From positions 336,001 to 400,000 of the forward strand of contig NZ_CM001240.1 in assembly GCF_000230835.1 (NCBI RefSeq): a stretch of DNA of 64,000 bases, written 5' to 3'. Source of the DNA: Clostridium sp. DL-VIII (GTDB taxonomy: Bacteria; Bacillota; Clostridia; Clostridiales; Clostridiaceae). Below the pieces are notes generated by a model. It did no database searches and had not been told where the DNA came from. It saw only the letters and a list, made by a program, of their open reading frames with translations. Both the position numbers and the translations under genes were made by a program. Below, piece by piece: positions 262-62,340 of the stretch (its first letter is position 1; each line of letters starts with the position of its first letter).

Positions 262-274
262 GCAGATAAGTCAA

Positions 275-485
275 AGTCCAAAAGTGATGCTCCAAATCTT
301 GTATTTGGCTAGCAGAACTATCTATGATTTGGTTCCTTGAACTTAGTTACCCCACTTATGAGTTAACATCATATAAAAATGATTTGATGATCATTGCTTA
401 CTTTGTGAGTACTCATCTGATGTTAGGAATAAGAAATTTTGTGCAAAAAAATGAACGTCTCATTTAGGGGAATGAGACGTTCTTT
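275..485 (+). ncRNA. Structured RNA candidate, copy A, downstream of metG
   Basis: This non-coding stretch is clearly related to the reverse strand upstream of asnS (25431-25690). A 34-nt block at 382-415 matches it at 29 positions, including GCTTACT, TGTGA and TACTCA. Three hairpins fall at matching places: CCAAAT/ATTTGG (292-297/303-308) with GCT/AGC below it, GAAC/GTTC (315-318/332-335) around the shared loop ATCTATGATTT, and AATGAT/ATCATT (378-383/390-395). An outer helix TAACATCA/TGATGTTA (364-371/418-425) is specific to this copy. I do not find the long closing helix that copy B has, so this copy may be reduced or a different subtype. It ends at a strong hairpin. The function is unknown. 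Confidence 0.6.
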
Positions 486-10945: not shown

Positions 10946-11016
10946 AAAAAAAACCTCCTTAATTGTGCTTGGAGATTCTCAACCTAATAATATAGAATAA
11001 AAAATTTTATAAGGTT

Positions 11017-11099
11017 GCATTCCCTACGCTAGAATTAACTAGATCAGGTTTTAAGGGTTTATGAATATCAAATCTCAGCCAATGGCTCCCCTAGCACAT
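11017..11099 (-). promoter_or_regulatory. TPP riboswitch (THI element) controlling thiT
   Basis: Reading the minus strand, the conserved parts are in order: GGGGAGC, GGCTGAGA, ACCCTT, AACCTGATCTAGTTAAT and CTAGCGTAGGGAA. These make the helices and binding loops of the TPP aptamer. Between it and thiT, a short hairpin CAACCT/AGGTTG is possible and no clear intrinsic terminator is seen. Control at the ribosome site (AAGGAGG) is therefore the more likely mechanism, but this is inference. Confidence 0.95.
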
Positions 11100-11120
11100 T
11101 ACTATATTTTATACCTATAG

Positions 11121-25222: not shown

Positions 25223-25430
25223 ATTATATGACCTCCATTTTTTATAATTAATCTTGAGGTTAGAAATACAAATTATAATTTTAATGAAGATAAAATTCAT
25301 TAGATTATAAAATTATAATTATTTTAAACCTGCTACCCTTAATGATAAATAGATTTTACAATACTTTCTTGGTGAATGCAACTTGAGGATGTCCATAAAT
25401 TATACTTTCTATGTAAGGCAGATTCAAATA

Positions 25431-25690
25431 AATAACAAGTCCCTTTGCTAGCCTATTTTTCATCATAAAGGAAGCTCGACTCGCATATGCTCCCTGAGTA
25501 ATCACAGAGTAAGCGACCATCATCAAATTATAGATTTGATATGTCTGCTTAACCGAGTCACACAAAATCATAGATTGCACTGTGTGAAAATTCGAGACAC
25601 CAAATGCAAGATTTGGTGTCTCGAACTTTTGGTTCTCTGCTCATCGGCAAATTGATGAAAAATATGCATAGCAACATTGGACTTGTTACT
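25431..25690 (-). ncRNA. Large structured RNA candidate, copy B, upstream of asnS
   Basis: On the minus strand this 260-nt stretch can fold into one closed structure. The two ends pair in three stacked blocks: 25431-25442 with 25679-25690 (contains AACAAGTCC/GGACTTGTT), 25445-25450 with 25669-25674 (TTGCTA/TAGCAA), and 25454-25465 with 25653-25664 (12 perfect pairs). Inside are three hairpins: 25591-25605/25611-25625 (15 perfect pairs), 25558-25564/25581-25587 (TCACACA/TGTGTGA), and 25522-25528/25534-25540. The block at 25495-25528 is shared with copy A near metG. A promoter lies just upstream. It does not match tmRNA, SRP RNA, RNase P RNA or a T-box as far as I can read. It could be a member of a known clostridial class such as raiA or 6S RNA that I cannot identify by eye. 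Confidence 0.65.
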
Positions 25691-25725
25691 TACTTTCATA
25701 AGCCTAAATTTTAATTAAGGTGGTA

Positions 25726-46943: not shown

Positions 46944-47032
46944 GCCGAAGTGGCGGAACTGGCAGACGCACAGGACTTAAAATCCTGCGGTGGTTAAACA
47001 CCGTACCGGTTCGATTCCGGTCTTCGGCACCA
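46944..47032 (+). tRNA. tRNA-Leu (TAA)
   Basis: An 89-nt class II tRNA with acceptor GCCGAAG/CTTCGGC, anticodon loop CTTAAAA (TAA), variable arm CGGTG/CACCG and encoded CCA. Intact. Confidence 0.97.
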
Positions 47033-47054
47033 TATATATGATAAAAGATAATAA

Positions 47055-47130
<76 letters not shown>

Positions 47131-47137
47131 TTGATAT

Positions 47138-47214
47138 GGCGGAATAGCTCAGCTGGCTAGAGCACTCGGTTCATACCCGAGGTGTCGTAGGTTCAAGTCC
47201 TATTTCCGCTACCA
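47138..47214 (+). tRNA. Elongator tRNA-Met (CAT)
   Basis: A 77-nt tRNA with anticodon loop TTCATAC, acceptor GGCGGAA/TTCCGCT with the discriminator A, and a D-arm AGCTCAGCTGGCTAGAGC. It resembles the Bacillus elongator tRNA-Met rather than the lysidine-modified tRNA-Ile. Confidence 0.85.
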
Positions 47215-47220
47215 ATATGT

Positions 47221-47309
47221 GCCGAAGTGGCGGAACTGGCAGACGCACAGGACTTAAAATCCTGCGGTGGTTAAACACCGTACCGGTTCGATTCCGGTCT
47301 TCGGCACCA
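47221..47309 (+). tRNA. tRNA-Leu (TAA), second copy
   Basis: Identical in sequence to the first tRNA-Leu of the operon; 89 nt with encoded CCA. Confidence 0.97.
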
Positions 47310-47331
47310 TGTATATGATGAAAAATAATGA

Positions 47332-47407
<76 letters not shown>

Positions 47408-47491
47408 CACAAATCAAATGTTCTTATAAGAATATTCAAATTAATATTTGAAGTGTCGTAAATTCTTTGTATATTTGATTGAAATGTACAT
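47408..47491 (+). repeat. Palindromic spacer repeat, copy 1
   Basis: An 84-base spacer after tRNA-fMet that recurs at 47678-47761 with about nine differences. Its ends pair (AATCAAAT with ATTTGATT), and an inner palindrome TTCAAAT/ATTTGAA is kept. It marks the tandem unit of the tRNA array. Confidence 0.8.
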
Positions 47492-47579
47492 ACCGAAGTA
47501 GCGGAACTGGCAGATGCACAGGACTTAAATTCTGCGATGGTTAAACATGGTACCGGTTCAATTCCAGTCTTCGGCACCA
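47492..47579 (+). pseudogene. Decayed tRNA-Leu copy
   Basis: This copy sits in the same place as the intact tRNA-Leu of the other units. It has lost one base near the anticodon, leaving a 6-nt loop if the stem TTCTG is used. G1 is now A, mispaired with C72. The T-stem has a C-A mismatch (ACCGG with CCAGT), and the variable arm has changed. It is probably not a working tRNA. Confidence 0.75.
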
Positions 47580-47601
47580 TATATATGATAAAAAATAATA
47601 A

Positions 47602-47677
<76 letters not shown>

Positions 47678-47761
47678 TACAAATCAAATGTTTTTGAAAG
47701 AATATTCAAAGTAATATTTGAAGTGTTGTAAATTCTTCGTATATTTGATTGCAATGTACAT
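47678..47761 (+). repeat. Palindromic spacer repeat, copy 2
   Basis: Second copy of the 84-base spacer at 47408-47491, with the outer pair AATCAAAT/ATTTGATT unchanged. Confidence 0.8.
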
Positions 47762-47850
47762 GCCGAAGTGGCGGAACTGGCAGACGCACAGGACTTAAAA
47801 TCCTGCGGTGGTTAAACACCGTACCGGTTCGATTCCGGTCTTCGGCACCA
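47762..47850 (+). tRNA. tRNA-Leu (TAA), last copy
   Basis: Identical to the first tRNA-Leu; 89 nt with encoded CCA. It closes the operon. Confidence 0.97.
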
Positions 47851-61505: not shown

Positions 61506-61580
<75 letters not shown>

Positions 61581-61615
61581 TTTTTTTATTTAAAAATAAT
61601 ATTTGATAAAGAATT

Positions 61616-61643
61616 AGAGTGGAAGTATTTTCTGCTCTTTTGT
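61616..61643 (+). terminator. Hairpin after tRNA-Asn copy 1
   Basis: AGAGTGGAA (61616-61624) pairs with TTCTGCTCT (61630-61638), then TTTTGTTTT. The homologous hairpin after copy 2 keeps the fold with changed bases. Confidence 0.7.
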
Positions 61644-61838
61644 TTTATTAAGAAATAATATAATATTTATGTTAATATGTTTATTATGATAATTAATGTA
61701 TTGAATTAAATGATTATGTTAGGTTATTTTTATTGTTTTTACTTAAATTTTCATTATAGCTGAAGCTAGAGAAAAACATTGGTTTCTGAATTATAAGAAA
61801 AATAAAATCAGACAAATGATAAAAAATGAAAAATAGGG

Positions 61839-61866
61839 TTGCATAATTTTAAAAAGCTGATATAAT
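61839..61866 (+). promoter_or_regulatory. Promoter of tRNA-Asn copy 2
   Basis: TTGCAT (61839-61844), 16-bp spacer, TATAAT (61861-61866). Confidence 0.8.
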
Positions 61867-61883
61867 AGACTAAGTAATGACGT

Positions 61884-61958
<75 letters not shown>

Positions 61959-61992
61959 TTTTTTTATTTAAAGATAATATTTGATAGAAAAT

Positions 61993-62020
61993 CAGGGTGG
62001 GAAGTACTTTCTGCCCTGTT
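61993..62020 (+). terminator. Hairpin after tRNA-Asn copy 2
   Basis: CAGGGTGGGAA (61993-62003) pairs with TTTCTGCCCTG (62008-62018), followed by TTGTTAT. Compared with copy 1 an A-U pair has become G-C. Confidence 0.65.
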
Positions 62021-62220
62021 GTTATATTAAAAAATAATAGAGATAGAGTATGTATATTAATTTATTTACTATTAGGTAACGTATGAAGTGATTATGGTAA
62101 TATGATTTCTTTGAATTATTATTTGATTCTGATCCATATGTCAAAGAATATATTTACGTAGTAAATATATAAGAAAATAGAGTGATAAAAAAATAGTAGT
62201 AAAAAAATAAAAAAATAGGG

Positions 62221-62248
62221 TTGCATAATTTAAAAAAGCTGATATAAT
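62221..62248 (+). promoter_or_regulatory. Promoter of tRNA-Asn copy 3
   Basis: TTGCAT (62221-62226), 16-bp spacer, TATAAT (62243-62248). Confidence 0.8.
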
Positions 62249-62265
62249 AGATTAAGTAATGACGT

Positions 62266-62340
<75 letters not shown>

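Follow-up and report, generated by a model that had tools for sequence, protein, structure and literature searches.

The window, by which we mean the whole stretch of 64,000 nucleotides of Clostridium sp. DL-VIII DNA that was analysed, carries two related elements between genes: copy A (262-485, plus strand), which begins behind metG, and copy B (25431-25690, minus strand), which lies downstream of a phosphodiesterase gene and in the neighbourhood of asnS. Elsewhere the window holds a TPP riboswitch (11003-11102, minus strand, 72.5 bits) and repeated tRNA genes at 46944-47847 and 61506-62337, with ten Rfam tRNA matches whose identical scores suggest duplicated copies. A sequence-only reading had described copies A and B as two paralogues of one conserved RNA, each beside an aminoacyl-tRNA synthetase gene, with loops kept on helices that change. 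Both copies are present at the positions given above and share the loops CTTGYATTTGG and ATCTATGATTT, and the first changed helix pair, GCT/AGC in copy A versus GACA/TGTC in copy B, is likewise borne out. The common block has the claimed 29 identities over 34 positions, but counted by eye over a wider block the figure is 31 of 37. The second helix pair had been misread: GAAC/GTTC of copy A does not correspond to TCACACA/TGTGTGA of copy B, since this GAAC is the 3' end of a nested module whose tail is missing, and in genome G069 the same nested module keeps its tail TCTCTGTGAGC. The hairpin at 453-482, which had been included in copy A, belongs to a separate metG-tatD block, and copy B, although correctly located, has a true span of 25417-25704, which is that of a whole MITE. 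Copies A and B do resemble each other, yet not as two paralogues of a single RNA gene: the parts that they share are small hairpin modules nested in different hosts (Table 1).

Table 1. Parts of copies A and B and of the adjoining metG-tatD gap, in window coordinates
Feature	Position	Strand	Basis or remark
Copy A, outer H1 unit, 5' arm	262..282	+	directly after metG stop codon (259-261); aligned with G028 and G030, same locus
Copy A, nested H1 module (TGC/GCA arm) in outer hairpin tip, 3' tail missing	283..319	+	model match 283-322, 54.8 bits, E 1.8e-10
Copy A, outer H1 hairpin, 3' half (ATCTATGATTTGG..GAACTTAG)	320..349	+	locus alignment
Copy A, stem-loop GTTA..TTAAC after outer H1	346..367	+	locus alignment
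Copy A, second hairpin module (ATTTGATGATCATTGCTTAC..GAGTACTC)	368..417	+	part of module missing in G030
Conserved metG-tatD intergenic hairpin, outside the repeat	453..482	+	shared by repeat-free relatives
Copy B, MITE of 288 nt, terminal inverted repeats GGCTTATGAAAGTAAGTAAC.. / ..GTTATTTATTTGAATCTGCC	25417..25704	-	ends 25679-25704 and 25417-25442
Target-site duplication TTA, left of MITE	25705..25707	-	read directly from sequence
Target-site duplication TTA, right of MITE	25414..25416	-	read directly from sequence
Copy B, inner host hairpin of MITE, 5' arm (GATGAGCAGAGAACCAA)	25629..25645	-	compared with family loci
Copy B, nested H1 module (GACA/TGTC arm), tail CACACAGTGC	25577..25628	-	model match 25586-25627, 28.0 bits, E 3.6e-4
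Copy B, host hairpin, 3' half (AATCTATGATTTTGTGTGACTCGG)	25553..25576	-	compared with family loci
Copy B, second nested module (TTAAGCAGACATATCAAATCTATAATTTGATGATGGTCGCTTACTC..)	25499..25552	-	compared with family loci
Copy B, H2 hairpin CTCAGGGAGCATATGCGAGTCGAGCTTCC	25470..25498	-	family form ACTC..GAGT..TTTCC

The module held by both copies, H1, is a 40-nt hairpin of the form AGT-GA-variable arm-AAAT.....ATTT-arm-GA-ACT. When followed by a small second hairpin, H2 (ACTC..GAGT, TTTCC), it makes up a unit that we call X, seen in solitary and in tandem copies. A covariance model built from 74 distinct H1 sequences and run over the window returned the two modules of Table 1 and nothing else with E <1. 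Such a model had been proposed as a check on the sequence-only reading, and it takes the family well beyond the two regions: at least 29 of 59 genomes were matched, all within the 36 of the genus, with at least 40 matches in the window's genome (G000) and at least 85 in the richest other genome, while among the matches listed none fell in the 23 genomes of other families. The view that there are only two copies was thus wrong, the more so as G000 has 141 matches to the ends of the MITE (up to three mismatches). The exact short-form pattern of H1 occurs in 11 of 59 genomes, with up to 37 matches per genome in a count that takes some nested modules twice; the reversed pattern gave 0 in all 59 genomes, so that chance similarity of AT-rich DNA does not account for the likeness of copies A and B. 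A longer-tailed form was found in 75 of 206 Clostridiaceae genomes, its carriers falling in 21 of 46 genera (reversed control 0). When a collection covering 84,980 species was scanned, which may lack records of the window's genome, 71 stretches matched; their titles name Clostridium, except for one bin labelled Bacillota. In DNA searches, copy B matched in at least 20 and copy A in at least 21 of the 59 genomes, several genomes having many places. No description of the H1/X family was found in literature titles and the starts of abstracts; full text was limited to open-licence papers, and absence from print is therefore unproven.

Two settings of the family deserve separate mention. In genome G017 (C1:1245001-1300000; L394-L396), 11 near-identical copies of X lie on one strand between duplicated short genes, several of which share MGYLPEIANKIKNGERVERIVDSIRG-like starts and differ in their tails; the arrangement resembles a polymorphic-toxin cassette array in which X has hitchhiked. 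The idea of attC-like cassette sites, which came from this array, was ruled out, as the 11 copies sit in near-identical flanks of duplicated cassettes. A nested module is also present in a virus-labelled contig (IMGVR_UViG_2703719317_000014; L268, 9540-9640), and carriage of H1 by viruses was rejected, the exact pattern matching only one IMG/VR stretch.

Copy A can be compared with the orthologous metG site of other genomes, and the states found there differ. In G030 the outer unit has an intact, empty tip, GTCCAAATCTATGATTTG, and in G000 an H1 with a TGC arm lies within that tip. The TGC-arm module of G069 is of the same kind but retains its tail, and its 3' arm carries another insert. In G028 the tip is occupied by a GAA-arm H1, within which lies an ATG-arm H1, and in G067 and G085 there is no element. 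By pattern, H1 lies behind metG in 5 of 44 loci (G000, G028, G030, G031 and G033), a count with one locus whose stop codon was missed and one where it was misplaced; by eye, family pieces were seen in four more, G069, G021 and, on the other strand, G086 and G087. The metG locus of G005 has a MITE. From these differing states it follows that family pieces recur behind metG in changing form. The asnS neighbourhood looks like chance, since copy B lies in a MITE, the family occurs in both gene orientations, and its G-U pairs are few and similar in number to A-C. Copy A has no terminal inverted repeats, and no MITE end was matched within 330 nt after metG in G000 (up to 4 mismatches in 20 nt).

The gap between metG and tatD holds a conserved noncoding block (453-540 of the window) that is independent of the repeat. 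It includes the hairpin GAACGTCTCAC-TTAGGGG-GTGAGACGTTC, a hairpin AACCAT..ATGGTT and AAGGGGTAAATAATAATGCTTTAACTACTTTAC, nearly unchanged in many members of the genus; a GGGG is followed by ATG CTT TAA, possibly start-Leu-stop. No credible Rfam match to the block was found; it may be a real leader or RNA.

Copy B has the features of a MITE: terminal inverted repeats, a 3-bp duplication of constant length, and a short body in many copies. Ends of this MITE (up to three mismatches) occur in 18 of 59 genomes and reach 311 in G030, with a reversed control of at most one per genome. Identical 3-nt flanks were read at 42 of 54 two-ended elements (21 TTA, 21 TAA), against a mean of 22.0 and a maximum of 31 in 1000 shuffles of the flanks; copy B is outside this count because its ends are too diverged. 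Copies of the MITE without the nested H1 module exist (e.g., L067, L068 and L071). Downstream of the same phosphodiesterase gene, two MITE ends were found only in G000 among 30 loci and five others had one loose match, in a set in which the start of asnS was recognised in just 7 loci and two stretches were short. Four of these 30 relatives (L163, L165, L172 and L181), but not the window's genome, have a T-box-like GTGGTACC in the 700 nt that follow the phosphodiesterase gene. Among the 100 of the 141 MITE end places in G000 that were listed and read by eye, one inward pair lay 2.2 kb apart (1760877/1763067). It was rejected as an autonomous partner, its right end being that of a separate MITE of ~158 nt, and no full-length, transposase-bearing partner was seen among these 100 places.

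Nesting is not confined to the window. At L095 of G030, three modules lie each inside another. AAA stands directly before 85 of 89 distinct short modules, and a crude test recognised a host half after 52 of the 89. In a stricter host-stem test, the two bases and AAA upstream of the module find an exact pairing partner among the 45 bases behind GAACTTTC in 41 of 87 cases, compared with a mean of 23.7 and a maximum of 33 when the downstream parts were re-dealt and with 5.6 for random 45-mers; the 46 modules without an exact match include, by eye, hosts that are one base off and other palindromic hosts. Some modules of G008 are located in another palindromic repeat (L004, L103). Further palindromic repeat families serve as hosts at L101, L103, L111 and L118, e.g., AAGTTGTTCCAAAATGCTTG..AGCATTTTGGGTACAACTT, some of them built on GTTAACTGTT or AATGATTAAGG. 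As with BOX, RUP and SPRITE, these are small hairpin repeats that enter one another between genes, only 4 of 138 clusters overlapping a crude ORF call.

A host of a different kind is the P1 loop of the glmS ribozyme. Many long-form copies of H1 come after the complement of AAGTTGACGAGG, which is the 3' side of the glmS P1 helix. At 15 loci chosen by this flank, half of the 30 genomes with a locus from the long-form scan, the Rfam glmS model matched at or adjoining H1 in 15 of 15, with 69 to 97 bits; matches to this model occur in 65 of 68 genus genomes. The 55 distinct P1 loops cut out with a limit of 900 nt are 8 to 657 nt long, and 15 of them do not exceed 23 nt. H1 was found in 26 of the 55, antisense in 24 and sense in 4, with both orientations in L014 and in L302, whose loop includes 100 masked bases; the rest of the long loops gave no strict H1 match. 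In the window's genome, P1 carries an insert of 242 nt that includes two H1, both antisense (L319). Extensions of P1 to 657 nt with X hairpins, some in tandem, were seen at L014, L302, L317, L322, L312, L319 and others. Among occupied loops the framing TTAAGTGA..TCACTTAA is common, with which P1 would stay closed.

The arms of H1 covary. Over the 74 distinct sequences, 97.9% of cells are paired versus 84.8 (sd 0.6) after shuffling, 115 cells carry double-sided changes versus 31.5 (sd 4.0), and the covariation score is 0.331 versus 0.078, slid versions giving at most 0.101. Two other measures were weaker: 5 pairs have a double change versus 3.9, which 47 of 500 shuffles reach, and there are 16 further pair types versus 13.6, which 30 of 500 reach. 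H1 thus has the base-pair covariation of a conserved structured RNA, within the limits that the collecting patterns fixed 7 of its 12 pairs (for loci from the 84,980-species scan also one or both sides of an eighth) and left just the three arm pairs and pair 11-25 entirely free. The 3-bp arm alone shows 21 fully Watson-Crick types among 39.

The tolerance of G-U that RNA helices have is not seen in H1. Over the four free pairs of 134 distinct H1, G-U makes up 9 of 510 paired cells and A-C occurs in 12; with pair 10-26, which is partly pattern-fixed, the figures are 10 of 641 and 13. A control hairpin of glmS from the same loci, a single helix with 19 distinct sequences, has G-U in 18 of 132 paired cells, or in 18 of 113 once its pattern-fixed pair is set aside, and 1 non-pair. 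Such symmetry of G-U and A-C is predicted by constraint or correction on DNA and not by an RNA helix, and rare G-U together with balanced gene orientation points to a structure at the DNA level. Template switching at replication can produce compensatory changes in hairpins, as has been reported (PMC8794818), so that covariation alone is no proof of RNA. An asymmetric bulge and a GA/GA step are preserved in H1. Neither would be expected if H1 had arisen purely by template switching, and both also favour recognition of a shape.

The position of the family relative to genes is balanced. Of 138 clusters, 42 lie between co-directional genes and 45 are anti-directional; divergent gaps hold 16, convergent gaps hold 11, and 20 stand at the edge of a locus. 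Where the upstream gene is co-directional, 16 of 53 clusters begin less than 10 nt after its stop codon, a closeness that may reflect a target preference. The modules show no clear target duplication of their own. A Y1 (IS200-IS605) or RAYT transposase is probably not the resident mover: the Y1 domain (PF01797) is present in 8 of 11 carriers of the short form and in 34 of 48 non-carriers, and the carriers G008, G034 and G009 do not have it, so that presence of the gene does not track the modules. A general bias with respect to the replication strand was rejected, modules running against replication in 24 of 31 cases in G030 but in 13 of 26 in G008 and 12 of 23 in G028; these were counted by hand, with the origin assumed to be near base 1 (G030, G008) or near metG (G028).

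Taken as a whole, we consider it likely that copies A and B are members of a dispersed, self-nesting family of palindromic DNA elements of the Clostridiaceae. The family is dispersed and high in copy number, its modules nest, one orthologous site holds differing inserts, glmS P1 loops are occupied, and the arms covary with few G-U pairs. In the Clostridium group around the window's genome, H1 modules would have entered the tips of other hairpins, be they H1 of the same family (recursively), MITEs or other palindromic repeats. They may insert as DNA hairpins into palindrome tips that are exposed as a single strand or cruciform, by means of a putative enzyme acting in trans; their arms would stay paired through the need for a DNA hairpin, through template switching at replication, or through both, and copies would multiply also as passengers of MITEs and of segmental duplications. 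An RNA product is unnecessary to account for the copies. What counts against this explanation is that insertion and loss are indistinguishable for some of the states, that vertical inheritance could account for tandem X and for the occurrence of X behind metG in several lineages, and that some of the amplification plainly came about by larger duplications, e.g., of the G017 cassettes. We further suggest, tentatively, that this could be a new kind of mobile DNA, 50-80 nt long and without the usual transposon ends, whose target is a hairpin tip, including its own tip and, in either orientation, the P1 loop of a ribozyme, and whose 3-bp arms vary freely while tip and feet are fixed, as if an enzyme read the shape of a DNA hairpin. 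Such an element would nest in itself repeatedly and could pass through genes for structured RNAs while leaving them intact.

Several of our results are what would be seen if the copies were instead paralogues of a conserved structured RNA, trans-acting or cis-regulatory, with covariation arising from RNA function. Covariation is strong, the GA/GA step and the bulge are kept, in 16 of 53 cases the element starts close behind the stop codon of a co-directional gene, and the folds beat those of shuffled sequences: copy B (25425-25705) reaches -107.7 kcal/mol versus -63.3 (sd 4.8; z -9.3) and copy A -58.5 kcal/mol versus -45.8 (sd 4.3; z -2.95). Relatedness, a structure kept with changing arms and a family beyond both places are parts of that proposal which stand, but two paralogues of one conserved RNA do not fit the low number of G-U, about equalled by A-C, the occurrence in both orientations to genes and within glmS P1, the nesting with insert polymorphism at one site, or the place of copy B within a MITE. 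There is also no credible Rfam match, neither copy having one at the gathering score and loose E-values giving only weak matches to unrelated families, and we regard the RNA explanation as quite improbable. Selection of the units as 3'-end signals (terminators, RNase sites or stabilisers) that spread by duplication is very improbable. X does often come right after stop codons, as behind metG in G031 and G033, and inspection by eye shows that H2 is often followed by an interrupted T-tract (TTTCCTTT or the like), yet no T-tract stands after H1, antisense copies are about as common as sense copies relative to their neighbours, with more divergent than convergent gaps, and copies are present within glmS P1.

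An account closer to the one we favour is that mobility is confined to the MITEs and other large repeats, and that H1 modules are inner parts of these, swapped through recombination and gene conversion and not inserting by themselves. This would agree with the many modules that lie within larger palindromic repeats, with the tail CACACAGTGC, or a near form of it, that modules seen in the MITE have in common while their arms differ, and with the G017 copies in duplicated cassettes. It accounts poorly for the modules and X units that no MITE surrounds, such as those behind stop codons or within the P1 of glmS, and for the different modules found at the same point of the same metG unit across species, though conversion could swap these; we think it rather unlikely. 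If the explanation by self-nesting DNA elements is right, compensatory changes between the copies of a repeat do not by themselves prove an RNA gene, and the count of G-U versus A-C offers a cheap way to tell DNA from RNA cases. Other odd intergenic 'structured RNAs' of Clostridium would then become possible repeats, the P1 loops of 8 to more than 600 nt in glmS of Clostridium would be accounted for, and the family would be a natural experiment on the invasion of hairpins by DNA hairpins, with varied inserts at one orthologous site and a conserved ribozyme loop as a genus-wide recording site.

Among known systems, MITEs are matched by copy B in its short length, terminal inverted repeats, 3-bp TWA duplication and many copies, but copy A and many H1 modules differ in that no such ends surround them. 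The TWA duplications of copy B's MITE family presumably resemble those of the IS5 / PIF-Harbinger kind. The pneumococcal BOX, RUP and SPRITE are small hairpin repeats that enter one another, as stated in the accessible part of PMC10969869, and nesting as such is therefore already known; as far as that part describes these repeats, the H1 family goes beyond them in entering the tip of its own kind recursively, in an arm of 3 bp that is free to vary as long as it remains Watson-Crick, and in the use of a ribozyme loop as host. REP/BIME, presented in PMC3733652 as palindromes of 20-40 bp in high copy with RAYT transposases, are like H1 in being high-copy palindromes. Unlike them, H1 has no constant GTAG or CGTC end, GTAG standing shortly before few copies only (L084, L086); by eye its feet are AGTGA / GAACTT, which the collecting pattern required, and Y1 genes are missing from 3 of 11 H1 carriers. 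The stem-loop families Clop-1 and Clot-1 (93 and 74 nt), known from C. perfringens and C. tetani (PMC2267715), could be relatives of X. Finally, X hairpins make up the P1 extension of the glmS ribozyme (RF00234) in many Clostridium genomes, but they are not a part peculiar to that ribozyme, as X occurs elsewhere too, and within P1 in both orientations.
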